NCBI GenBank assembly: GCA_024399655.1
Contig: JAKSNP010000003.1
Coordinates: 1 to 64,000 of the forward strand
Length of the DNA: 64,000 nt
Direction of reading: 5' to 3'
DNA from: Paludibacteraceae bacterium
GTDB taxonomy: Bacteria; Bacteroidota; Bacteroidia; Bacteroidales; Paludibacteraceae
Part shown: positions 123-11,257 of the stretch, in pieces
How the letters are laid out: each line of letters begins with the position of its first letter
Position numbering within the stretch: the first letter of the stretch is position 1
Translations under genes and position numbers: made by a program
The notes under the pieces: generated by a model
What the model was told of the DNA's origin: nothing
The model's input: the letters and a program-made list of their open reading frames with translations, nothing else
Databases searched by the model: none

Positions 123-476
123 TTAAGCTTCAGCAACGGCTTGTTCAAAGCGGACTTGCTCTCTTGCGAATAAGAAGCGGACGGGGCAGAACTTGTAATT
201 GTCTTTCTCTACCGGTGCACCCCAAAATAGGTAGGCGTGCTGACCTTTCTTAACTTGTGCGCCTTTTGCTTTCCAACCATCAAAGGTGTTCAGTTCGACA
301 TCTACCAAGTTGTAGCACTCACGCAACAGTTGGTTGCACTTGAAATCGGTTCTGCCTGCTGTCTTGGCCACCTCTATCAAACCATTGGTGATGGTCTTTA
401 GATGCTCGCGATAATCTTGCATACGGGTGTTAGCTACTTCGTTCATGTTCTCGGATTTTTTAGTTGTTTTTGCCAT
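123..476 (-). CDS. Small ArdC N-terminal-like protein
   Basis: 117 aa from the ATG at 476. The stretch around residues 65-90 (DGWKAKGAQVKKGQHAYLFW) resembles the N-terminal domain of ArdC-type antirestriction proteins (DUF1738), which bind single-stranded DNA. No C-terminal peptidase-like domain is present, so this would be a free N domain. The start was chosen because the same context, CAAAATTTTACAACT-ATG-GCAAAA, precedes the unrelated gene at 3345-3686. An in-frame ATG at 542 would add 22 residues and corresponds to the start of the gene at 3723-3917. It is the first gene behind regulatory cassette 1. The antirestriction role is inference from weak similarity. Confidence 0.6.
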   Translation of the reverse strand: MAKTTKKSENMNEVANTRMQDYREHLKTITNGLIEVAKTAGRTDFKCNQLLRECYNLVDVELNTFDGWKAKGAQVKKGQHAYLFWGAPVEKDNYKFCPVRFLFAREQVRFEQAVAEA

Positions 477-539: not shown

Positions 540-760
540 CATTTTCAAATTTTGTTTTTTACACTGCTTTAAGAGGGTGTTCACATAACCGAACATAAAA
601 ACAAGGTTTTCGGCATTTTACTACCCCATCGGGGCTGGAGAAAATCCAATCAAAAATTAGCCTTCCGACATTTTTTATTAGAAACATGCTTGACCTTGTA
701 GTTTCGGGAGAATGCCCTAACTTTGCAGTGCTAAAATAACAATCATTATTTGGAAATGGG
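540..760. promoter_or_regulatory. Divergent regulatory cassette, copy 1
   Basis: The left half is a minus-strand leader containing GCTTTAAGAGGGTGTTC (566-582), shared with the copies at 3915 and 6080. The right half is a plus-strand Bacteroidota promoter: TTG 696-698, a 19-bp gap, then TAACTTTG 718-725. It is followed by a conserved leader ending in ACAATCATTATTTG just before an ATG at 756. The cassette drives the ArdC-like gene leftward and a 41-codon ORF or RNA rightward. No convincing -7 box was found for the minus direction. Confidence 0.7.
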
Positions 761-881
761 AGCCACAAAATTCTCCAGTAAATCAACCAACATTAACTTT
801 ATTCAAATCAACTATATTGGCAGAGACAACGGCACACAAAATCCCTACAATGAACGGCTAATGCCCATTGCAGCAAGATAG
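756..881 (+). CDS. Putative 41-aa small protein behind cassette 1
   Basis: This short ORF begins directly after the conserved plus-strand leader of cassette 1, about 25 nt from the predicted transcription start. The product starts MGATKFSSKSTNINF and ends NERLMPIAAR. It has no recognisable domain, signal or membrane segment. The equivalent position in cassette 2 also carries an ATG-started short ORF (4112-4234) with weak similarity near NRLPI. It could be a real microprotein, a leader peptide, or an accidental ORF inside a regulatory RNA. Confidence 0.35.
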   Translation: MGATKFSSKSTNINFIQINYIGRDNGTQNPYNERLMPIAAR

Positions 882-1235
882 CGAGTACCGCTGACCTAAT
901 AACCAAATGATAGAGAGTCAAGTTAGCGGCAAGATGGAAAGGTGTTGCAACCAACGCGCGAGTGTAGCGACATGGTGACGAACCACGACCTTGGTTGGAA
1001 ACCAAAAGTCAAGTGAAAAGAAAGGTAACGCCTACCTTGGGGAGTACCGATAAAATAAGAAAGATAATGCCCACAAGTTGCCTTGTCTGCCTATACGCAT
1101 AAAGCAAGCAATCGCATTCAATTGAACACGATTGCTTGCTCCATCAGCCCCAAGGGGAATTATCCTAAGAGCATTTACAATAATCACTCAGATAGGAAAA
1201 CTATTCAGAGAACCTCCGCACAGCAGAGTGAGCCA
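882..1235 (+). other. Transcribed-looking region without a clear gene; ends in a perfect hairpin
   Basis: Downstream of the cassette 1 promoter there is no ORF of convincing length. A 12-bp perfect stem (AGCAAGCAATCG 1103-1114 with CGATTGCTTGCT 1129-1140, 14-nt loop) is the only strong structure. It has no U-tract. A plus transcript continuing past it would be antisense to the gene at 1236-1634. Confidence 0.35.
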
Positions 1236-1634
1236 CTACAACCCCTCGATAACGTCCCAAAAGCATTTTGGAAGGTACACATTAGGCACATTAACTGCGT
1301 CTTGGAACAGAGGAGCGACCTCCTTTGGCGAATACCCTGCGATGCCGCATCCGACAGCGGTAACGAGGAAGATAAGATTCGGATGTTGTTTGGCACAATC
1401 AATGAACGTTGCCACCGCACGGCGAAAAGATGTCTCGCCTTCCATCGTTGGAAGGGCATAACAATGACCGGTAAGACCTTCACCTACGCCCCATACAGCA
1501 CCAAAGGTACGAAAGGCAAAGTAGGCAGCACCGCCTCCGTGGTGTCCCTCGATATTACTGCCGAATACGAATACCTCGTTCTTTTTCAGCGATTGGATAT
1601 TGTCCGGCGCGATACGGGTGGTAAATTTACACAT
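1236..1634 (-). CDS. A1S_2505-like phage-associated protein
   Basis: 132 aa. The N-terminal VFVFGSNIEGHHGGGAA and the later FLVTAVGCGIAGYSPKEVAP match the pattern of the A1S_2505 family of phage non-structural proteins, a macrodomain-like fold with conserved GSN and GCGxAG loops. Family length is similar, so it looks intact. The precise biochemical role is not established; a nucleotide or ADP-ribose ligand is only an inference from the fold. It is a typical accessory gene of prophages and integrated elements. Start is the ATG at 1634. Confidence 0.65.
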   Translation of the reverse strand: MCKFTTRIAPDNIQSLKKNEVFVFGSNIEGHHGGGAAYFAFRTFGAVWGVGEGLTGHCYALPTMEGETSFRRAVATFIDCAKQHPNLIFLVTAVGCGIAGYSPKEVAPLFQDAVNVPNVYLPKCFWDVIEGL

Positions 1635-1702
1635 AAATTGTGAATTGAGTTAAATTAACTGCTCAAAGGGCACTTCAAGCTCAAACAAAATTACCAAACC
1701 AA

Positions 1703-2434
1703 TTACAAGATGTCGTCAGTTTCAAAAGTCAAGTAATTAAATTTGTCATCACCATCTTCTTCGGCATTTCTAAGACTTTTGCTTTTCCCATTGACAAACA
1801 CATATTTAAGTCCATTCAAAGAGTTTGAATTCTCTAAACTATTTGATGTACCATAAAATGCTCGGTGATTTTTGCTAAGATATTTGGCACGTTCCATAAT
1901 GACCCAACGGTATATATTAGCCCACGGAGTATGCATAGGATTGATAACTATATCAACAGACGAAAACAATTGCTCAAATTCCTTTTGCATACTTGGCACT
2001 GCAATAGTAGGTTTGCCGTTTTTGTGGCATCTAATAATGCTACTTTCTCCACATAAAAGTAATAGACATTTTTTTCCATCAATTTCGAATTGACGATGTT
2101 CACGCAATTCCTTAAGTAACTTTTGAGCAATGTCTATATTTATTTGTCCTGATTGAGAAAATACCTGTCGCGAATTCATGGGCTGAATGCGCCCATTTTG
2201 AAGCAAGAACAATTCGCCATGTCGCTGACGATCAATAATAACCTCTATTACCGCAGTCACTCTATTGCCTTTCTTTATGGCACTTTCTAATTTGGGTAAA
2301 TCTCTTTTAGATCCTAGAGCCCAACCCGGAAACACAATCAGACCTTTTTTAAGCGTATTAACGCGGGAAATGGTATACTCTAAACGACTCCTATTAGTAC
2401 AACCATATTGTGATGAAATGATACAAATTTTCAT
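1703..2434 (-). CDS. Nitrilase-superfamily-like protein, possibly without the catalytic Glu
   Basis: 243 aa from the ATG at 2434. Three segments fit the carbon-nitrogen hydrolase fold: LIVFPGWALGS near residue 33, LLLLCGESSI near the middle, and VDIVINPMHTPW after it. The Cys of CGE is placed like the catalytic Cys of the family, followed by an acidic residue. The expected FPE glutamate, however, is FPG here. The catalytic Lys cannot be assigned. It may be a degenerate or specialised amidase. The promoter box at 2488-2495 leaves almost no leader for the upstream ATG at 2476, which supports the chosen start. Substrate unknown. Confidence 0.5.
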   Translation of the reverse strand: MKICIISSQYGCTNRSRLEYTISRVNTLKKGLIVFPGWALGSKRDLPKLESAIKKGNRVTAVIEVIIDRQRHGELFLLQNGRIQPMNSRQVFSQSGQINIDIAQKLLKELREHRQFEIDGKKCLLLLCGESSIIRCHKNGKPTIAVPSMQKEFEQLFSSVDIVINPMHTPWANIYRWVIMERAKYLSKNHRAFYGTSNSLENSNSLNGLKYVFVNGKSKSLRNAEEDGDDKFNYLTFETDDIL

Positions 2435-2487
2435 AAATTTCCCGTTCAATAATAAAACAACAAAATATAAAATCATAAAATTGCCTG

Positions 2488-2495
2488 CAAAATTA
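2488..2495 (-). promoter_or_regulatory. -7 box of the nitrilase-like gene
   Basis: Minus-strand TAATTTTG fits TAnnTTTG. Transcription would begin near 2481, about 45 nt before the ATG at 2434. Confidence 0.5.
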
Positions 2496-2542
2496 CGATT
2501 TTTTTTTCAATTTTCCAAATGATATTCAATATTCAGTAATAA

Positions 2543-2563
2543 AGGAGGGGTGTTCAACCTCCT
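2543..2563 (-). terminator. Hairpin downstream of the Sel1-repeat gene
   Basis: AGGAGG (2543-2548) pairs with CCTCCT (2558-2563) immediately after the Sel1 gene. The U-rich tail on the minus strand is short, so termination would be weak. Confidence 0.35.
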
Positions 2564-2565
2564 CA

Positions 2566-3249
2566 CTATTTCTTTTTTACAATAAAACGTTCTAAATTAT
2601 GCTTTGCAGTAGGACAGCCTCCTATTTTGACAGCCATCTTATAATAATCATATGCTTTATGTAAGTCCACAGGTACACCATATCCCTCCTCATAAATTCG
2701 TCCAAGAGTATTAAGAGCATTTGCATCATTCGCCATACTTTTATCACTAACAAGAGCATAAGCTCGCTCATAATCTCGCAAATTTCCCGGAGCATAGAGG
2801 AGTTCCAATGCTAAATTGTTTTTTGCATCAAGAAATCCTGCTTCCATCGCTCTCTCGTACCAATGAATAGCTAACGCAATATCTTTTTTTACACCAAGTC
2901 CATTGGAATATGAAAAACCAAGATTGTTCATCGCGCCACTTTCTCCATTTTTAGCACAATCAAAATAAATTTCAAATGCTTTTTTATATTCTCGTTTACC
3001 AAACCAACCACATTGCAAACCATAAGCGTAAGTATTCCCTGCCCAATAATCACCCTTTTTATATAGGTCACTTAATATAATTCGACCTTTTCTAATATCT
3101 CCTTCTTTAATTAGGCGCATAGCTTTGTCTTCCATTATTTCTATCTCTGAAATAGGTTCAAACTCTAAGGGTTCCGGTGAGAGTTTTAAGCTAACAATAC
3201 CTTTCTTTGTCATAATCATCGCCTCTCCAAATTGATAAAATTTTCGCAT
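2566..3249 (-). CDS. Sel1-repeat (TPR-like) protein
   Basis: 227 aa. Helical repeats of the Sel1 type are evident: AFEIYFDCAKNGESGAMNNL, NGLGVKKDIALAIHWYERAM and EEGYGVPVDLHKAYDYYKMA, each about 36 residues and spanning roughly 75-220. The first 60 residues form a non-repeat head. There is no signal peptide, so it is probably cytosolic. Such proteins act as protein-protein scaffolds; the partner is unknown. The ATG at 3249 sits about 25 nt after the predicted transcription start; an ATG 10 codons later is possible. It has its own promoter and is therefore a separate unit within the mobile element. Confidence 0.75.
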   Translation of the reverse strand: MRKFYQFGEAMIMTKKGIVSLKLSPEPLEFEPISEIEIMEDKAMRLIKEGDIRKGRIILSDLYKKGDYWAGNTYAYGLQCGWFGKREYKKAFEIYFDCAKNGESGAMNNLGFSYSNGLGVKKDIALAIHWYERAMEAGFLDAKNNLALELLYAPGNLRDYERAYALVSDKSMANDANALNTLGRIYEEGYGVPVDLHKAYDYYKMAVKIGGCPTAKHNLERFIVKKK

Positions 3250-3279
3250 AATCTTTTATTCTTATATTGATTTTCATTG

Positions 3280-3287
3280 CAAAAGTA
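3280..3287 (-). promoter_or_regulatory. -7 box of the Sel1-repeat gene
   Basis: Minus-strand TACTTTTG fits TAnnTTTG, about 30 nt before the ATG at 3249. The 10-bp dyad at 3293-3319 covers its -33 region and could double as an operator. Confidence 0.55.
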
Positions 3288-3292
3288 CAACA

Positions 3293-3354
3293 AGACTACG
3301 CAAAAACACTGCGTAGTCTCAAAAAAAACATAAAAGGAGGGCTTCTAACCCTCC
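3293..3354 (-). terminator. Tandem hairpins after the 113-aa gene
   Basis: The first minus-strand hairpin (GGAGGG ... CCCTCC, 3336-3354) overlaps the stop region and is followed by a T-rich stretch with eight consecutive T, a credible intrinsic terminator. A second, perfect 10-bp stem (AGACTACGCA 3293-3302 with TGCGTAGTCT 3310-3319) follows. Confidence 0.6.
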
Positions 3355-3686
3355 TCTTCCTCCTCTTTACAGATTCGGTACCAGACTTTTTCCGTGCCAT
3401 CTTTTTCGTTGCAAGAACGATAGTAGAGCATATAAAGGTCTCCTCCGATATGGTAGGCGAAATAGTTCCACAATCGAATAAGCAGTTGAGGATCATTGCC
3501 ACCATGACCTTCAATTTGCAGGAGGTTCTCTCCGTCTTTGTTGTAGAGGTGCAGCAATACAGGTGCACTGTAACCGTCAATGAAGGTGGCTACATAGCCA
3601 CATCCGCCACATACACTTGGGAAATGGTACATATCCAAATAGGAAGCCAAATCCTTGTTGTCAAACTTAATGAGTTCTTTTGCCAT
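3345..3686 (-). CDS. Hypothetical protein, 113 aa
   Basis: Not recognised. It starts MAKELIKFDNKD and has a Cys-rich patch near residue 26 (VCGGCGYVA) that could bind metal. It is rich in aromatic residues and ends in a run of five Glu and a Gly. The leader and start (ACAACT-ATG-GCAAA) copy those of the ArdC-like gene at 123-476, although the proteins are unrelated. It is the second gene behind cassette 2, 36 nt after the 64-aa gene. Confidence 0.6.
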   Translation of the reverse strand: MAKELIKFDNKDLASYLDMYHFPSVCGGCGYVATFIDGYSAPVLLHLYNKDGENLLQIEGHGGNDPQLLIRLWNYFAYHIGGDLYMLYYRSCNEKDGTEKVWYRICKEEEEEG

Positions 3687-3722
3687 AGTTGTAAAATTTT
3701 AATGGTTGTTAATTATTGTTGA

Positions 3723-3917
3723 TTACCACGTTTGAGAGCAAACGTTAAAGTCGATATACTCGTCATAAATATCTCCCCAATCTGCATCTTCAGGTGAAAG
3801 AATGAAGTTAGCAACTTTCTTAACGCTTTTTGTAATTTCTGCAAAACCGAATAAATCTAATTGTGTTCCCATAACTGTTCCTTGTTTAGTGGTTGATATT
3901 AAAGAATTTGTTGTCAT
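3723..3917 (-). CDS. Hypothetical protein, 64 aa
   Basis: Not recognised. A small soluble product beginning MTTNSLISTTKQG and containing TQLDLFGFAEITK, a segment resembling short partner-binding motifs such as the clamp-binding QLxLF. The start lies in the conserved leader of cassette 2 (ACAAATTTGAA-ATG type context), so it is the proximal gene of that operon. The clamp-binding idea is inference from the QLDLF string alone. Confidence 0.5.
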   Translation of the reverse strand: MTTNSLISTTKQGTVMGTQLDLFGFAEITKSVKKVANFILSPEDADWGDIYDEYIDFNVCSQTW

Positions 3918-4115
3918 TTCAAATTTTGTTTTTTACACTGCTTTTAGAGGGTGTTCACACCACCGAACATAAATCAAGGTTTCCGAAAAACAATACCACT
4001 ATGCAATACTGGAGATTTTTTAAGATCACATCGCCGGAACATGCCTCGACCTTGTCGTTTCGGGAGAATGCCCTAACTTTGCAGTGATAAAATAACAATC
4101 ATTATTTGACAATGA
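3915..4115. promoter_or_regulatory. Divergent regulatory cassette, copy 2
   Basis: Near-duplicate of the cassette at 540-760. The minus-strand leader contains GCTTTTAGAGGGTGTTC (3940-3956). The plus promoter has TTG 4052-4054, a 19-bp spacer and TAACTTTG 4074-4081. The leader after the promoter again reads ACAATCATTATTTG and ends at an ATG (4112). It drives two orphan genes leftward and short ORFs or an RNA rightward. Confidence 0.7.
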
Positions 4116-4234
4116 CAGCTCTAAATTCTATACCAACCACCAATAAGGCAAACAGGTCAGAACACAATAGGTTGCCCATTCGGTTGCAGACATGGAGGAA
4201 AGCACCAAGTTGGTTACCATTTGTAACCGATTGA
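4112..4234 (+). CDS. Putative 40-aa small protein behind cassette 2
   Basis: ORF starting at the ATG that follows the conserved leader, positionally matching the 41-aa ORF at 756. The product is basic (NRSEHNRLPIRLQTWRKAP) with no known domain. It overlaps the next ORF in another frame, so at most one may be genuine. Confidence 0.3.
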   Translation: MTALNSIPTTNKANRSEHNRLPIRLQTWRKAPSWLPFVTD

Positions 4235-4341
4235 TTGGCGGAGATAAACGATGTATTGAGGCAGTCGCTCTCCATAGTATCAACGAGATAATAAGAAACG
4301 ACCTAAATGGACTATGGCACGAACGATGCCCGGACAACTAA
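4192..4341 (+). CDS. Putative 49-aa small protein
   Basis: Begins MEESTKLVTICNRLIGG and continues with an amphipathic helix-like stretch, CIEAVALHSINEIIRNDL. The composition looks more protein-like than the overlapping 40-aa ORF. It is transcribed from cassette 2 if the promoter is active. Not recognised. From 4342 to 4594 no further gene is seen. Confidence 0.35.
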   Translation: MEESTKLVTICNRLIGGDKRCIEAVALHSINEIIRNDLNGLWHERCPDN

Positions 4342-4594
4342 TTGGCAGACGGATTAGGTTCCACCAAGAAAGGCAGGATGGCTGAAGCTGCCTAATGGTT
4401 ACAATGCACCAGCGCACCCTACCTAACAAAAGCAAATAAACGTAAGGAATAGTGGCACTCAACTGCCGATTGTGGAACTCGCCACCAAGGAGAACTGCAC
4501 TACCATATCGTTACGAAAAAGGCGCGGAAAAAGAAAAGCGGCTGCACATATGTACAATCGCTTTCTCATTTCAAATAAGACACCGAAACTGCAT

Positions 4595-5002
4595 TTAATA
4601 TGGCAAAACAACAATACCATCCCTTGAGTAGTATTCTTTTGCTGCATCGCCATACCTAATGGTAAAACTGGCATATTCTTCTTTATCAGTAAAATAAACG
4701 GAGAAGTTCTCATCTTTATCCACCTTGTGCCACTGACCGCATCCTTGTGGATTATCAACCCATGAAACGACTAAGTCAGCACCACCGGATTTTACAACAT
4801 ATACCCACACATCGGCATCATATGGATCGGTTGTAACACGGACATCACCCCACACCTCAAATGTTTCAGTCACCATCCCTTTATCAAGAGTATATACGCA
4901 ATTTGAAACAGGATTAGGACAAGGTCCAGTTGCGCAAATTCTATCTCGAGCAATAGCAAACAACGACGTAAATAATAGTATCAAAGTAAGATAACCTTTC
5001 AT
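4595..5002 (-). CDS. Secreted DUF6150-like protein
   Basis: 135 aa with a signal peptide (MKGYLTLILLFTSLFAIA) and a mature part of short beta-type repeats: DADVWVYVV, GADLVVSWV, ENFSVYFTDKEEYASFTIRY. The repeated x-AD-L/V-x-V-Y pattern and the CGQW segment resemble DUF6150. Four Cys in the first 45 mature residues suggest disulfides outside the cytoplasm. No function is known for the family. It is monocistronic between cassette 2 and the cassette 3 operon. An exported protein is unusual cargo here and may act at the envelope. Confidence 0.55.
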   Translation of the reverse strand: MKGYLTLILLFTSLFAIARDRICATGPCPNPVSNCVYTLDKGMVTETFEVWGDVRVTTDPYDADVWVYVVKSGGADLVVSWVDNPQGCGQWHKVDKDENFSVYFTDKEEYASFTIRYGDAAKEYYSRDGIVVLPY

Positions 5003-5141
5003 AAAAGAGTAATTTATTCATACAAATCTCTACAAAAAATATGCCAAGAGAAGATTACAAAATTACCTCAACTATCCGGCACACAAAACAGCGAGCGACG
5101 CCCACAGGCAAAGCGAGCGCGCGACATAAAAAAAAGGTCAC

Positions 5142-5471
5142 TTACGCAACCTTTTCTATATGTGGGTACTTTACCCGTTCTTCTATATCGTACACTCTTG
5201 GAAAGTGTCGCGGTATGTTCATTATTCCCCAATCACCTTTGGGGTCATAATTCATAACGTGCCAAAGGGTTGAAATCGTATCTTCGGGAAAGAGCCAAGA
5301 AAGTTGAGAAAAAGCGCGGTAGGCAATTTCTTCAAATTGGCTCCAAGTGGTTTGATACGGCACCACTTCTGCGGCTATGCACGCGGTCATATCCTCTGCC
5401 TCATCATCAAAGACAAAGGGGTTGCTGTTCAAAGCAGATAAAATCACATCTTGCAAATCTTTTGTAAGCAT
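5142..5471 (-). CDS. Hypothetical protein, 109 aa
   Basis: Not recognised. Acidic and aromatic-rich (WSQFEEIAYRAFSQLSWLFP), probably a small helical cytosolic protein. It begins 19 nt after the stop of the 176-aa gene and so forms an operon with it behind cassette 3. An extended Trp/Tyr-rich C-terminal half hints at a binding surface, but nothing more can be said. Confidence 0.55.
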   Translation of the reverse strand: MLTKDLQDVILSALNSNPFVFDDEAEDMTACIAAEVVPYQTTWSQFEEIAYRAFSQLSWLFPEDTISTLWHVMNYDPKGDWGIMNIPRHFPRVYDIEERVKYPHIEKVA

Positions 5472-5490
5472 AACATCAAATTTTTGAGGG

Positions 5491-6021
5491 TTAATATGAT
5501 AGGTTGTATATATTGCAAAAACCTTTGCACGCGCGCATAAATTCAGAGTAGCTGAGCGTGCCCTCTTGACGCATTACGCTATTTATGCCGTACCAGTAGT
5601 AAACATCGTTGAGGTACTGCTCGGCACTATAAAAGCCGGTGCGGTCGTTGTCTTCTTTTGCGTTCTCCATTGCTTCACGCAAACGATAGATTGCGCTTTC
5701 AAATTGTGCGCTGAAAGGTTCGAGGAAATGCTCGTACTGCTCGCACTCTTCCGCGTCTGCAAGTGTCAAATTGATTTTGACGCCGTGCTCGGCTGCATAG
5801 TCAATTAAGATGGGGTGCAAGTCAAACTCGTCCTCCTCTGTAACAAAGAAACCACCATCAACCAACGCAGTCAATATACTTGCGGTTATGTTTGTTTCGC
5901 GGTGATTAACCTTAACAACACTCGTAGTAACATCAATGTTGTTACTAACATTACTTACTTGTTTCTCACTACCTCTCTGGGTGCTCGGAACTTCATCAAA
6001 AGAAAAACTTAACTGTGACAT
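5491..6021 (-). CDS. Hypothetical protein, 176 aa
   Basis: Not recognised. The start at 6021 gives MSQLSFSFDEVPSTQ. Upstream in-frame sequence is low-quality and belongs to cassette 3. The N-terminal 50 residues are Ser/Asn/Thr-rich and probably disordered. The rest is helical (FSAQFESAIYRLREAMENAK) with a Tyr-rich patch, YLNDVYYWYG. It is the first gene of the cassette 3 operon and carries a QLSFSF motif near its N-terminus, similar in style to the QLDLF of the cassette 2 product. Confidence 0.55.
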   Translation of the reverse strand: MSQLSFSFDEVPSTQRGSEKQVSNVSNNIDVTTSVVKVNHRETNITASILTALVDGGFFVTEEDEFDLHPILIDYAAEHGVKINLTLADAEECEQYEHFLEPFSAQFESAIYRLREAMENAKEDNDRTGFYSAEQYLNDVYYWYGINSVMRQEGTLSYSEFMRACKGFCNIYNLSY

Positions 6022-6079
6022 ACTTATTGAATTTTTGTTGAACTTGCGTATAATGTAGTTTGCGTATGATTGAACCTTT

Positions 6080-6660
6080 AACGTTGCTTTAAGAGTGTGT
6101 TCCAGTAGAGGCGTGAGCAAGGTTTTTGCCAAAAATACTACCGCCACAGCCGAAGGGCGACGCAAGGAGTCTTGCCGTGGCGTGTGGAGATTTTTGAGAT
6201 AGTTGGTTTGCGGGCAAATTGATAGCTCTGTGAGTAGTGTAGGAAGGCAGGAAACAGGCGGAGTCTCGGTGCGGCCACAGTGCCAACCGTGCGCGTAACG
6301 AGACTCTGCCCCTGCCGTCATCGTACCGAAACGGAACACAATGCTATCAATGTACCTGATGTAAGTTGGAGCAAGGACCATCGAATAACGGAATATCACA
6401 GCAAGACTGCGACAAAGGAACAGTCTTGCCGTGACATGGAGTGCTGGCGTAGCGAGAATAGTAGCACATAGAAAAGCAGGAGGAACACAGCGAGAACTCC
6501 GGGACGGAGTCTTGCCGTGTTTCGTATGCCTTTCGTGCGAAAATGGAAGCGGAGCCGAGATAGTCCAAGCTCCAGTGTTGAAGGTTGCCCCCTAACCAAC
6601 TATCGGTGCAAAACATAGCCCGACCTTGAGCACACCGGAGAACACACTAACTTTGCAACG
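6080..6660. promoter_or_regulatory. Divergent regulatory cassette, copy 3 (expanded)
   Basis: Left half: GCTTTAAGAGTGTGTTC (6086-6102), followed by the AAGGTTTT seen in the other copies. Right half: TTG 6626-6628, a 19-bp spacer, TAACTTTG 6648-6655. Between the halves are about 430 bp more than in copies 1 and 2. This extra part is GC-richer and carries AGTCTTGCCGTG three times (6168, 6422, 6508). It drives the 176-aa and 109-aa genes leftward. Confidence 0.6.
6168..6519. repeat. Three AGTCTTGCCGTG repeats
   Basis: Exact 12-mers at 6168-6179, 6422-6433 and 6508-6519, two of them preceded by GG. They occur only inside the extra segment of cassette 3. They could be protein-binding sites or parts of a structured RNA. 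Confidence 0.6.
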
Positions 6661-6714
6661 GATAAAGGTGGTCACAATCGTACGCTGCTGCATGCAAAGT
6701 TCGACAATAAGGCA

Positions 6715-6780
6715 ATGAAACAAGTGTGTCACATTAGCCCTTTTCTATGCAGTTCCAAGCACTACAATAGCGTAAAGTAG
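6715..6780 (+). CDS. Possible 21-aa ORF behind cassette 3
   Basis: First ATG-started ORF after the cassette 3 plus promoter (MKQVCHISPFLCSSKHYNSV and one more residue). It is very short and without database-recognisable features. Unlike copies 1 and 2, the conserved leader is lost here, so the promoter more likely makes an RNA. Confidence 0.15.
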   Translation: MKQVCHISPFLCSSKHYNSVK

Positions 6781-6827
6781 TGAGAAAGGCAAGTAAAAAA
6801 ACAAAAACAAAAATAGATACCCATTTT

Positions 6828-7062
6828 TGGCACTCACAAATACTCACAACTCACAAAAATATTAAGTGCTTGATATTCATTATATTATTATTTTTCTATC
6901 TATAAAAATATATATAAATAACCCTAATTTTCTGTGAGTTTTGTGAGTTTTTCAAACTTTGTGAGTTTTTTGTGAGTTTTTGTGAGCGTTTTTTAGCATA
7001 CCGAAATTGGCACTAAACCCTTATAAATACTACATGTGAGCGTTGTGATTTTTTGTGAGCCT
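6828..7062. other. Probable replication origin: inverted iterons around an AT-rich core
   Basis: CTCACA occurs at 6833, 6843 and 6850. TGTGAG occurs at 6933, 6942, 6960, 6971, 6981, 7035 and 7054, with TGTGAT at 7044. The two sets face each other across an almost pure A/T stretch (6856-6930). Spacings are mostly 9-11 bp, one helical turn, as in initiator-bound iterons. The site lies just beyond the 3' end of the primase-helicase genes. Function is inferred from this layout. No terminator or gene is seen at 7063-7179. Confidence 0.55.
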
Positions 7063-7141
7063 CGAAATGTGGTCTTAAATTCATTTTATTTTTTGGCATA
7101 AAAAATGGCAGCGACTCTCCCGAGCAGCTACCACCACATTC

Positions 7142-7159
7142 AAAGCAAAAATAACCAAT
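7142..7159 (+). repeat. 18-bp direct repeat, copy 1
   Basis: AAAGCAAAAATAACCAAT is repeated exactly at 12003-12020 next to the tRNA-end junction. The two copies bracket the replication and regulator module. Confidence 0.6.
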
Positions 7160-7179
7160 AACGGATTACTCACATAGTT

Positions 7180-8451
7180 TTAGTCCCCTTCATCGGTTGC
7201 TAAATCAATAGAACCTTGCTGAGGGGATGGCGAACTATGATCGTCAATCTCATCACTGGTTTCCGTTAGGGATGCGACTTTGAGGTTGATGCCATACAAA
7301 GTCTGCACCGCTTTGTAATCAAAACAATAAGCTTGGTCTGTAATTTCTTTCGGGCAATACCTAGTTTCAGTAGTGCCATCTTTTCTAGTTCTGTTCACGG
7401 CAACTTGTTGCATTGTTCCATCGCTAAAAACGGTGAAACGCTTGGTTGTTGATAAACCATAGAAGATGGTTGAATCCGAGCGCAGGTAATAAGCAATACT
7501 TTTCTTCGATACCAATTCTTCCCCGGATTGTCTGCCGTGCATTTGGTACAACTCAAAAATACGGCGATGTCGGAGAAATAGTATCTCCTTGGGAGCATCA
7601 AACTTAATTACCTTGCTTGTTTCATCGTTATCCTTAATGCGCAGTTCCGTGAGCCATTCAATCTTGAAGTCGCCTGTTTCCGTGATATGTCCTTCCCTAA
7701 AGAGGAAGTCAACGATGTTCCAGAATGCTGCCACCTCAGATCCATCTTTTGTGAGGTTGTTTTGCTCTACCAGCATCTTTGCTGTAATGGATAGCAAATC
7801 CCCATAACTATAAGAAACACGAATAATGTTTCGCATAGCATGGAAAGCCGCTAAAGGAACGAGCCAGTTGTTAAACAAGCGGTCCTCGATATTCTTATCC
7901 TTTACGGCTTCGTATAAATCTTGAGCAGCCACTTGAGCAGATAACTTATAGTTAGCAATAAACTGTGGCCGATGCTTCAAGATGTCAAGTAATAGGTGGC
8001 TGCACCCCTGCTTACGTAACTCCACCAAATTTTGGAAACGCCGTCTTTCCTCTGGCGTGCGCTGTTCGTTGGTTTTGACTGTTCGCAGGAAAATCAATCG
8101 AGAGAAGAGTGCGATATCTTTATTCGGCATTTCTTGTCCGGATAGAATGACGCCGGCATCGACCTGCGTCGTTTCGCGCTTCTTATCTTTATCCATGGTC
8201 ATACGTGTGCGCCCGGTACCATCCCACAATCCTTTCAAGAACTCAATCTTGGTAACATCAATGATGTTCTTGTACTCATCTATATGTACGAGCGCATTTG
8301 AGCATTGCGCAACGGCTTCTGATAAGGCGGCAATGGTGGAGTTTAGTATATTGACAGCTTTATTATTGATGATAAAGAAAGCCATCAAAGAGTGTCCGAG
8401 TTCTGATTTACCAGTACCCTTGACACCAAAGATATTCAATATCGGAAACAT
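7180..8451 (-). CDS. Helicase part of a primase-helicase (AAA ATPase), split from its N-terminal half
   Basis: 423 aa beginning at MFPILNIFGVKGTGKSELGH, where GVKGTGKS is a Walker A loop. A Walker B-like ALVHIDEYKN follows near residue 58, then SRLIFLRT resembles sensor/arginine-finger regions. A helicase cannot normally begin three residues before its first core strand. The matching upstream half sits in the adjacent ORF (8436-10541) in another frame, ending in the FRDVI segment expected just before this one. The two ORFs overlap by 16 nt. Either a one-base frameshift broke a single DUF927-type helicase gene, or the ribosome shifts frame, or the chain is made from the overlapping ATG at 8451. 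It would unwind DNA at the element origin next to it. Confidence 0.75.
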   Translation of the reverse strand: MFPILNIFGVKGTGKSELGHSLMAFFIINNKAVNILNSTIAALSEAVAQCSNALVHIDEYKNIIDVTKIEFLKGLWDGTGRTRMTMDKDKKRETTQVDAGVILSGQEMPNKDIALFSRLIFLRTVKTNEQRTPEERRRFQNLVELRKQGCSHLLLDILKHRPQFIANYKLSAQVAAQDLYEAVKDKNIEDRLFNNWLVPLAAFHAMRNIIRVSYSYGDLLSITAKMLVEQNNLTKDGSEVAAFWNIVDFLFREGHITETGDFKIEWLTELRIKDNDETSKVIKFDAPKEILFLRHRRIFELYQMHGRQSGEELVSKKSIAYYLRSDSTIFYGLSTTKRFTVFSDGTMQQVAVNRTRKDGTTETRYCPKEITDQAYCFDYKAVQTLYGINLKVASLTETSDEIDDHSSPSPQQGSIDLATDEGD

Positions 8452-10541
8452 CTTCGTATGATCGCAATTACATCACGGAAAACAGTGGCAAGCAGGAACG
8501 CATAAGCGACTTTGGCATTATCTCCAAAACTATCCACCAAGCGGGATATATATTCCTCCATACTGAAACTACCGTAGGTGGTGTGGATAAATTGGTGCTC
8601 AAAGTCGCTCTCACTTTTCTCACTATCATCCCTGATAGTCGATGCGGATGGGAGGTAGTAGTTGCGCTGTTCAAGAGTTCCCTCGTTCAGCTTGACAATA
8701 CCATACTCATCCGCTGCGTGCCATACGGCACCATCAAAGATACCATTGCCAAAGGCATAGAATAAAGTACGCTTTTGCCAACCGAGTTTGTGGATTAGGT
8801 AAGCCGTGTCCGTAGCTTTATAAAGGTACCGTTTAAGACTTGTCAATTGTTCGTCCTTTGCCAGCCACAGGAAGTTGCCCAAAGACTCAACCTTGGTTGC
8901 GAACTTAACACGACTTGCCAAATCCTCTTGCTTTAATTCTATGACTTCGCTAGTGCCATACATATTCGTAATCTTAAAGATACGAGACGATGCAGTAGCG
9001 TCTTTGATATGGAATAGTGGTTTAAGAACAAAATTAGACCATTCGTAGGTTTTACCTTTTTCGCCCACAGTGACATAGCAATGGTTCTTTTCAATAAAAC
9101 CATATTGCTCCAACTGCTCCCCATCAATATCCTTATCACGCTTCTGCCTGATGAGGTCTTTGGTGAGATTGCACTTGGCATTGGTGATGGCATCCGTCCA
9201 AGTTTTCTTGGTCGCCTTGATATAGGGTGTAATCTCATCAATTATGATATTGACTTGGTATTCAGTTTTGACATAACTGAGTAGGCGTGCAACTTCGCTG
9301 ACATTATGCTCCGTGTCATCGCCGTGCATAGCACTAAGTTTAGCGGCATACCAAACAATGAAATTTTCTTCGCTGACCATATCAAACTTATTCTTTGTTT
9401 GGAAATATGAGTCAGCGTCCATTTTTTCGGGCTTTTTGCCCTTTGTGGACTTTGATTTATCGCTGGAGGTAATTTCCTTTACCAACACCTTATCAAAGCC
9501 CATAGCGAGACATTTCTCGCCAAATTTCATTACCTTTTTTATGCCGGTACCATACTTTTCTCCTGCCTTTGGTGGATCAATGTCCGGGATAAAGCATAAT
9601 GTATGCGCATATCGTTGCAGTTGTTGCAATTGGTGTTCCGTCCAATCTGAGCCGAGACTGGCAACAGCATTATTGATTTCGAGGTATTGTAAGCGCAACA
9701 CATCGGGGCCACCTTCCATAAGGTAGAATTTATCTTCAGAAGCACCGTACTGTCGCGCTACATCCAAACCAAATACCGACTTGTCCTTTGAGTATAAAAG
9801 ACTATTCTTTGAATTGAGGTATTTAGGAGGTTCCTTGTCGCCTTTAGGTGTTGAACCTTTGGAAGCCGGAACATATCGTGCCGTGTATGCAATAATCAAC
9901 TGGCTGGCACTGCGTATAGGAATCATTACACGGCCACGAAAGAAATCATAAGTGTGAGACTTGTCCTCACTCTCGGCTAATAAGCCCAACTCAATTAAAA
10001 TTTGTTCGGATAGATGTTTCTCCTTCGCCCAATCTTTGAGTTTATGAAAATCGTTGTATGCGTAGCCAATTCCATACGCATCTACAAAATCAACACCCCA
10101 ACGTTTAGTGGCATAAGACAATGCAGCCAGGGCTTCAGGATTATCTTCACGGATATTCCGGACAAAGAACTGCTGCACCCGTTGGTAGGTGTTAATCATC
10201 AATTGTCGGCGATTATCTTCATCCCTTCGCTTGGCTTTCTCCTCTGGAGTTTCTTCTTCCTCTGTGAGGGTTATCTTATACCTATCGGCTAACTGCTTAA
10301 TGGCTTGAGGAAAAGAATAGCCATGCTTCTCCATAAGATAATCGACAGGATGACCATATTTGCCACACCCAAAGCATTTGTAACTGTTCCGGGCAGGGAA
10401 CACAACAAATGATGGGGTCTTCTCAGTATGGAAAGGGCAACAGCATCGGAGGTTCTTACCATATCGGGTAAGATCTTCCTCAACAACGTCCTCAATACGT
10501 GCAACATCAAGAACGCGGTCTATATCACTTCTTAGTATCAT
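8436..10541 (-). CDS. DnaG-like primase with TOPRIM domain and N-terminal helicase half
   Basis: 701 aa. Residues 1-100 are a CHC2-type zinc domain (CCPFHTEKTPSF ... YKCFGCGKYGH). Residues about 170-400 form the primase catalytic core with a TOPRIM-like region (FYLMEGGPDVLRL, LCFIPDIDPP). Residues about 460-701 resemble the N-terminal part of DUF927 helicases (YLIHKLGWQKRTLFYAFGNG). The reading frame ends at FRDVIAIIRRCFRY, while the helicase continues in the next frame at 8451. It presumably primes and supports replication of the element. It overlaps the upstream 124-aa gene by 17 nt, indicating translational coupling. Confidence 0.8.
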   Translation of the reverse strand: MILRSDIDRVLDVARIEDVVEEDLTRYGKNLRCCCPFHTEKTPSFVVFPARNSYKCFGCGKYGHPVDYLMEKHGYSFPQAIKQLADRYKITLTEEEETPEEKAKRRDEDNRRQLMINTYQRVQQFFVRNIREDNPEALAALSYATKRWGVDFVDAYGIGYAYNDFHKLKDWAKEKHLSEQILIELGLLAESEDKSHTYDFFRGRVMIPIRSASQLIIAYTARYVPASKGSTPKGDKEPPKYLNSKNSLLYSKDKSVFGLDVARQYGASEDKFYLMEGGPDVLRLQYLEINNAVASLGSDWTEHQLQQLQRYAHTLCFIPDIDPPKAGEKYGTGIKKVMKFGEKCLAMGFDKVLVKEITSSDKSKSTKGKKPEKMDADSYFQTKNKFDMVSEENFIVWYAAKLSAMHGDDTEHNVSEVARLLSYVKTEYQVNIIIDEITPYIKATKKTWTDAITNAKCNLTKDLIRQKRDKDIDGEQLEQYGFIEKNHCYVTVGEKGKTYEWSNFVLKPLFHIKDATASSRIFKITNMYGTSEVIELKQEDLASRVKFATKVESLGNFLWLAKDEQLTSLKRYLYKATDTAYLIHKLGWQKRTLFYAFGNGIFDGAVWHAADEYGIVKLNEGTLEQRNYYLPSASTIRDDSEKSESDFEHQFIHTTYGSFSMEEYISRLVDSFGDNAKVAYAFLLATVFRDVIAIIRRCFRY

Positions 10542-10899: not shown

Positions 10900-11221
10900 A
10901 GACCTTACTTATTATATTGTTTGTTCGCTTTTGATCCTTACGTGGGACAGATACGCGCTGTAGCTCATAGCCGTCCTTTATTCTATCAATAACCAACTGG
11001 CGATAATTTGCAAAATTATCAAGGAAGTCTGACAAAATTTTCTCGAGCGCACGCGCTTCCAATAGACTAAAATTGCAGTGATTTTGTTTGTAGTAGAAGG
11101 TTGAACGTCCCCAACCTAACTCTACATCCATCACATCCCGGAACACTCTTTTTTGGTTTTGGGTCAAAGAATGATAAAAAACACTTAAATTTTGCATTTT
11201 TTTGTACGAAAATTTTGTCAT
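10853..11221 (-). CDS. Small HTH-like DNA-binding protein, 122 aa
   Basis: The central segment VELGWGRSTFYYKQNHCNFS, followed by EARALEKILSDFL, resembles small helix-turn-helix proteins common in Bacteroidota phages and elements, where a GWxxSTFY recognition helix is typical. The C-terminus is basic. It is the first gene of the replication operon, 22 nt after a predicted transcription start. It faces the XRE regulator, so it may be the anti-repressor or Cro-like partner in a two-gene switch. That role is inferred from layout only. Confidence 0.5.
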   Translation of the reverse strand: MTKFSYKKMQNLSVFYHSLTQNQKRVFRDVMDVELGWGRSTFYYKQNHCNFSLLEARALEKILSDFLDNFANYRQLVIDRIKDGYELQRVSVPRKDQKRTNNIISKVYENVCKNECTSQACQ

Positions 11222-11236
11222 ATCAATTATTTTTAC

Positions 11237-11257
11237 TAACTTTGCACCGCAAAATTA
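11237..11257. promoter_or_regulatory. Overlapping opposed promoters of the regulator switch
   Basis: A plus-strand TAACTTTG (11237-11244) reads toward the XRE gene. A minus-strand TAATTTTG (11250-11257) reads toward the replication operon. Their predicted start sites cross by several bases, so two polymerases cannot occupy both. The plus transcript would have a leader of about 160 nt. Confidence 0.5.

Follow-up and report, generated by a model that had tools for sequence, protein, structure and literature searches.

What does a regulatory block do that stands three times, each time before different genes, within one mobile element? This question is raised by a 64,000-nucleotide stretch of a Paludibacteraceae bacterium of the phylum Bacteroidota (assembly GCA_024399655.1, contig JAKSNP010000003.1, positions 1 to 64,000), referred to here as the window. 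A first-pass annotation described the blocks as a divergent cassette, with a leader core on the minus strand and a promoter on the plus strand, acting as a two-way control unit whose plus-strand product had no assigned role. Our data suggest, with a probability of roughly two in three, that the cassettes are Bacteroidota fold-back promoters that work on single-stranded DNA (ssDNA) and are analogous, by working principle, to the Frpo/ssi elements of plasmids.

The repeated sequences themselves were recovered by motif search. The promoter motif TTG-N19-TAACTTTG occurs exactly four times in the window when both strands are searched, compared to a chance expectation of approximately 0.03 occurrences for eleven fixed bases by simple arithmetic. 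Three sites lie on the plus strand within the cassettes (696-725, 4052-4081, and 6626-6655), and the fourth (11215-11244) is not among them. The leader core, allowing up to three substitutions, is found in the window solely at 566-582, 3940-3956, and 6086-6102. Copies 1 and 2 are 95% alike over 57 nt on the leader side (543-599 and 3917-3973) and 91% alike over 75 nt on the promoter side (689-763 and 4045-4119), so that the likeness beyond the promoter, given as about 40 bp in the first-pass annotation, measures approximately 38 nt. Copy 3 is 72% like copy 2 over 46 nt. The minus-strand open reading frames (ORFs) behind the copies differ each time, as had been proposed, and the idea of a standard control unit before differing genes holds both within the element and across elements.

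We found that the leader core and the plus promoter, which had been read as separate features, are complementary to each other and make up a single imperfect inverted repeat, one arm each. The Bacteroidota promoter consensus is of the -33/-7 type. Folded as ssDNA, the plus strand of all three copies adopts the same hairpin, with a 6-bp foot, a 6x6 bubble at the -7 box, a 9-bp helix, and outer pairs at the -33 box. The z-scores of the folds are -2.7, -2.3, and -7.6 for copies 1, 2, and 3, with shuffled sequences at least as stable in 2/200, 2/200, and 0/100 cases, respectively. Copy 1 (562-730, plus strand) has its 5' arm at 562-607 (foot CACTGC at 562-567, bubble at 568-573, helix at 574-582, CCGAA at 589-593, and ACAAGGT at 601-607) and its 3' arm at 693-730 (-33 TTG at 696-698, -7 TAACTTTG at 718-725, and foot GCAGTG at 725-730). 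Copy 2 (3936-4086, plus strand) has its foot at 3936-3941 and 4081-4086, its -33 TTG at 4052-4054, and its -7 box at 4074-4081. In copy 3 (6082-6660, plus strand) the foot pairs CGTTGC at 6082-6087 with GCAACG at 6655-6660, the -33 TTG is at 6626-6628, and the -7 box is at 6648-6655. Feet thus vary from CACTGC/GCAGTG to CGTTGC/GCAACG, and the helix varies from AGGGTGTTC/GAATGCCCT in copies 1 and 2 and in hairpin L012A of a related contig to AGTGTGTTC/GAACACACT in copy 3 and AGCATATTC/GAATGTGCT in L012B, with pairing retained.

The same DNA fold is present in relatives with different helix sequences. The hairpins contain CAAGG/CCTTG pairing around the -33 box, an A/T-rich inner stem above it, and a conserved inner motif, AAAATAC..GGAGATTTT. 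The 3' arm holds the -7 box TA[AC]CTTTG, which is unpaired in some hairpins, including those of the window, and in others pairs next to a short bulge in the opposite arm. In 28 of 33 minimum-energy folds, at least half the foot forms. Most hairpins have loops of approximately 100 nt; the loops of copy 3 (6119-6620, approximately 500 nt) and of L012B (approximately 800 nt) fold almost end to end as DNA.

We found these hairpins well outside the window, and the prospect that no copy would exist elsewhere, named by the first-pass annotation as a refutation, can be set aside. Further copies are present in genomes G051 and G321, on contigs of Candidatus Colicola equi (L012) and C. caccequi (L026). 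A motif scan and a detector with reversed-upstream controls revealed further hairpins, with several elements carrying two each. Among 244 promoters, the detector gave 19 with a score of at least 16 versus 0 controls, copy 2 being counted twice and one viral sequence three times in the 19, and 24 versus 4 controls at a score of 15. Of 295 Bacteroidales genomes covered by a pattern search, 13 contained matches, 17 in total, with none in the reversed control; several of the 17 look like ordinary promoters. A covariance model, R1, searched against 395 Bacteroidota genomes at E up to 1e-4 per genome, has matches in 24, with as many as eight in a single genome. Copies 1 and 2 are training members of R1 (77 and 83 bits), and copy 3 goes unreported by it, presumably because of its long, structured loop. 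The leader core alone has 23 matches in genome contigs, 21 of which lack the second arm, and copy 2 as a query has no match in phage and plasmid DNA. The two ends of L012 (1-99 and 6311-6409) repeat each other exactly over 99 bp, which indicates either a circle of 6,310 bp or an assembly loop. Over 6,096 bp, L012 matches a contig from the C. caccequi bin with 99.98% identity. An ArdA gene is present on L012, among whose ORFs no replication gene was recognised by eye.

The helices of the hairpins covary. In a chosen set of 31 hairpins we counted 52 double-change cells compared to 13.8 in shuffled data, a value reached in 0 of 500 shuffles. Among 26 held-out R1 matches, whose rows were aligned to a model that itself favours structure, there were 45 double-change cells compared to 12.7 (0/500), and 93.0% of cells were paired compared to 83.7% after shuffling. 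The promoter-carrying strand also folds better than its complement in 41 of 43 held-out matches, the exceptions being L175 and L207, with a mean difference of -3.5 kcal/mol compared to -1.1 in shuffles (composition-corrected paired p 1.2e-8). These 43 matches form 30 clusters, and the promoter strand is favoured in 25 of the 26 clusters without a close training relative; six of the 43 rows resemble a training row at 80% or more across 70% of their length. Of the 33 hairpins in the chosen set, 26 are more stable on the promoter strand. This preference points to the promoter-bearing strand, rather than a minus-strand mRNA, as the molecule that folds.

These sets were assembled as follows. The detector scanned 80 of 120 viral loci and R1 scanned 100, and 17 of the 30 viral R1 matches entered the strand test. 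The 13 left out were training members (L148, L153, L159 twice, and L164), three matches in L176 (one near a training member and two weaker), L181, and sequence repeats (L171, L149, L152, and L231). The held-out tests likewise exclude L269, L293, and L294 (training), L291 and L292 (weak or partial), and genome-scan rows without a locus. One arm, that of L065a, was misplaced in the ORF-side and wobble counts, and the corrected span was used in the strand and fold counts of the chosen set.

The hairpins have a preferred orientation relative to genes. An ORF of at least 45 amino acids starting with ATG lies within 150 nt of the foot on 29 of 33 gene sides compared to 10 of 33 other sides, and in the held-out set an ORF of at least 60 amino acids lies within 250 nt on 18 of 26 gene sides compared to 8 of 26 other sides. 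A gene-facing -33/-7 duplex promoter between hairpin and gene was found in 0 of 32 chosen hairpins and 1 of 26 held-out ones. These results do not favour the two-way unit with a plus-strand product: the duplex plus-strand promoter points away from the genes, ORFs are far scarcer on the plus side, and the ssDNA fold accounts for both motifs with one promoter. With the promoter in the 3' arm, a presumed start at the foot, and the 5' arm serving as template, a transcript would enter the minus-strand cargo and not the plus strand. The duplex form of the cassettes may nonetheless give rise to a plus-strand RNA.

We infer the following mechanism. In its single-stranded state, for example during conjugative entry, the plus strand would fold back and rebuild a promoter with -33 and -7 boxes. 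On this folded duplex, RNA polymerase would initiate at the foot and proceed outward over the 5' flank, where the template of the minus-strand genes lies. The genes read from the folded strand would be the ArdC-like gene and small accessory proteins in the window, and ArdA or PcfK/AcrIIA9-PcfJ elsewhere, with a presumed anti-defence purpose. Second-strand synthesis would then abolish the hairpin, leaving a linear promoter that points away from the genes and a gene-facing arm that is mis-spaced. Given the loss of the hairpin in the duplex, the outward linear promoter, and the mis-spaced arm, expression would be confined to the entry phase.

Behind copy 1 lies the ArdC-like gene (123-473, minus strand), whose match to Pfam ArdcN (E 0.004) is below the curated cut-off. 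Behind copy 2 are, in order and all on the minus strand, a 64-amino-acid ORF (3723-3917), an ORF at 3345-3686, a Sel1-repeat protein (2566-3249), an ORF at 1703-2476, and a phrog_2072 protein (1236-1634). Behind copy 3, on the minus strand, a 178-amino-acid ORF (5491-6027) is followed by ORFs at 5142-5471 and 4595-5002. On the plus side of each cassette are 400-500 nt without an assigned gene (736-1140, 4090-4594, and 6660-7170), and an inverted repeat with two 19-nt arms, 89% complementary, lies at 1103-1140. Of 178 genomes of the genus, 36 have relatives of the ArdC-like protein, a count that includes the window's own genome. We fetched 40 stretches around these relatives and examined 42 loci for promoters: within 1.5 kb upstream of the ArdC-like gene, a consensus promoter points away from it in 18 loci, not all of them hairpins, and towards it in 3. 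At L088, L089, L094, and L098b, the outward promoter does not form the hairpin. Outside the window, the cargo comprises ArdC, ArdA, and PcfK (AcrIIA9 family)-PcfJ. PADLOC returned nothing for eight cargo proteins, relatives of two cargo proteins were not found in viral contigs, and relatives of the ArdC-like protein were not found in plasmids.

Conjugative elements provide further hosts. The hairpin is present upstream of PcfK-PcfJ genes in mob- and tra-bearing conjugative elements of Bacteroides, Parabacteroides, and Prevotella; the integrative and conjugative element (ICE) on G612:C19, for instance, encodes the MobB relaxase, MobC, TraG, TraM, PcfK, PcfJ, and an integrase. We used PcfK to reach named records, fetching 12 of 35 plasmid-collection records; in one PcfK record the annotation is that of an AcrIIA9-family Cas9 inhibitor. 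R1 matches 9 of the 12, always on the strand opposite PcfK, and in L257, L260, L263, L264, L265, L267, and L268 the match is within 1.5 kb upstream of PcfK. Weaker extra matches (29-43 bits) occur in L257 and L261; the stretch around the one at 17252-17395 of L257 (43 bits) contains a gene for a BfmA/BtgA mobilization protein. We take the layout of NZ_OY725750 (mobABC, tra genes, and RteC) to be that of a CTnDOT-type conjugative transposon. In all four elements with mob genes that were looked up (G612:C19, CP103159, NZ_CP072340, and NZ_OY725750), the order is mob on the minus strand, tra on the plus strand, accessory genes on the minus strand, and hairpin on the plus strand. The relaxase gene, as far as the available text of one study describes it, typically enters last or lies in the lagging region (PMC11541004). 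Together with the gene order, this rule would make the hairpin-bearing plus strand the one transferred in each of the four elements.

Several observations weigh against fold-back promoters used on conjugative entry. One is the presence of the hairpin in prophage-like elements, apparently including that of the window, which this reading leaves unexplained. The window starts at a contig end (G000:C8) of a 1.4-Mb genome that is 75% complete. The mobile element spans position 1 to approximately 11.3 kb, with host-looking genes from approximately 12 kb onward, and carries a DnaG-type primase and helicase, small minus-strand accessory genes, and the ArdC-like gene at the contig end. Its primase/helicase module (7180-10541, minus strand) consists of an ORF with a DnaG-type zinc finger and toprim domain (8436-10541) and an ORF matching the C-terminal part of phage primases (7180-8451). 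These two parts overlap in the window, form a single 1,089-amino-acid ORF in L101, and give adjacent matches in L102. The visible part of the element contains no relaxase or tra genes, and the relaxase family PF03432 has no match in the window's genome, which is incomplete and whose element is cut by the contig end (other relaxase families were not searched). The same search of 13 hairpin-bearing genomes found two relaxases, both on other contigs. Sister elements L065, L101, and L164 carry head-protease or terminase-like genes. L101 (head maturation protease, ArdC, and ArdA) has primase-helicase and ArdC-like genes in common with the window's element, whose contig stops before the head region; L065, in the window's own genome, has a head maturation protease; and L164 has a terminase-like gene, a head protease, and an ArdA relative behind the hairpin. 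Overall, the window's own element looks prophage-like. A second prophage-like element in this genome (G000:C9:98600-102621) has three R1 matches. We know of no source of single-stranded phage DNA, and to our knowledge ssDNA is not expected in phages. It is less likely than not that Bacteroidota prophages, the window's element among them, use the same fold-back promoters for anti-restriction genes. If they did, either infection or replication would pass through a single-stranded template stage, or phages and conjugative elements would exchange one entry-phase module across the phylum.

Other adverse points concern the counts and the geometry. The foot is absent or hardly formed in 5 of the 33 minimum-energy folds (L081, L083a, L083b, L181, and G640, the last with no foot at all). 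The excess of G.T over A.C in a strict mismatch count is not significant (26 versus 17, p 0.22; non-redundant 20 versus 16, p 0.62), and 7 of 31 hairpins have A.C instead of G.C at one -33 pair. A strict outward promoter is present in 19 of the 26 held-out matches. The counts in the chosen set are partly selected because the 5' foot was placed by complementarity and the detector gave G.T a higher score than other mismatches; the held-out set is less affected by such selection, yet R1 uses 16 pairs on the promoter strand. In the four mob-bearing elements the accessory genes lie beyond the tra genes, and the position of the origin of transfer is deduced. The main R1 matches of L258 and L261 are 3-5 kb upstream of PcfK with opposite-strand genes between, and R1 finds no match in three of the 12 PcfK records (L259, L262, and L266). 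These three plasmid stretches, which carry PcfK and SSB genes and in two cases a methylase gene, may use another promoter.

We weighed three other explanations. Single-strand origins (sso) are folded ssDNA used by RNA polymerase, and the hairpins might mainly serve to make a primer for the second strand, with gene expression secondary. The same strand and structure would be expected, several hairpin copies occur per element, an sso has been described in ICEBs1 (PMC4595007, in the part available), and Frpo itself also primes DNA synthesis according to the accessible text of a review (PMC9024699). We nevertheless consider this unlikely: an ORF within 150 nt of the foot, as in 29 of 33 hairpins, is unnecessary for priming alone, and copies within one element precede different operons. 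A second account places regulation in the duplex or in RNA, with the plus promoter producing an antisense or small RNA and the inverted repeat acting as an operator or as a minus-strand mRNA leader. The plus promoter is a good duplex consensus, and a stretch without an assigned gene lies on the plus side of each window copy. The helices covary, however, and therefore are no fixed operator; the complement folds worse in 41 of 43 matches, against a minus-strand leader; and a plus start at the foot, as presumed, would leave the hairpin outside that RNA. Rfam 15, run on the window and ten loci, gave only tRNAs above threshold and two sub-threshold chance matches, with no family for the hairpin, and we regard this account as improbable. 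That the repeats serve recombination which swaps the genes behind them, as the first-pass annotation had suggested, would fit the differing gene order behind the units of the window and L012 and the 91-95% likeness of copies 1 and 2, but is very improbable since across elements the promoter boxes and pairing are conserved while helix sequences are too dissimilar for recombination.

Single-strand promoters have so far been worked out in F-type plasmids. Frpo is a single-strand promoter on which early leading genes of F depend (PMC9849209), and it is found in many leading regions, according to a study whose main text does not contain the term "bacteroid" (PMC11541004); both statements rest on the portions of these papers that were available. 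A literature search for such promoters in Bacteroides or Bacteroidota gave, among the hits listed, no description in titles or the beginnings of abstracts (subscription papers and most preprints were outside its coverage), and the mention of Frpo in the text it matched concerns F only. If fold-back promoters are indeed what the cassettes are, a major gut phylum would have its own version, with its own promoter code, before anti-restriction and anti-Cas9-family genes on gut Bacteroidales conjugative elements, the timing of defence evasion in Bacteroides conjugation would become directly testable, and R1 would mark likely entry-phase genes in unannotated elements. Like sso elements such as sso1 of ICEBs1, the Bacteroidota hairpins would act as folded ssDNA; unlike them, they stand directly before genes. 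The CTnDOT-type element NZ_OY725750 has its hairpin upstream of PcfK-PcfJ, whereas the window's element has no visible relaxase or tra genes. With the Frpo/ssi elements of F and ColIb-P9, as far as the available text describes them, the hairpins have in common a non-coding stem-loop that would rebuild promoter boxes on ssDNA and an occurrence in several copies before anti-defence genes; Frpo/ssi elements precede leading-region genes, and the hairpins may do so as well (PMC9849209, PMC11541004). Unlike Frpo/ssi, with their -35/-10 boxes, the Bacteroidota hairpins have -33/-7 boxes and an inner motif of their own, belong to another phylum, and are also carried by prophage-like elements.

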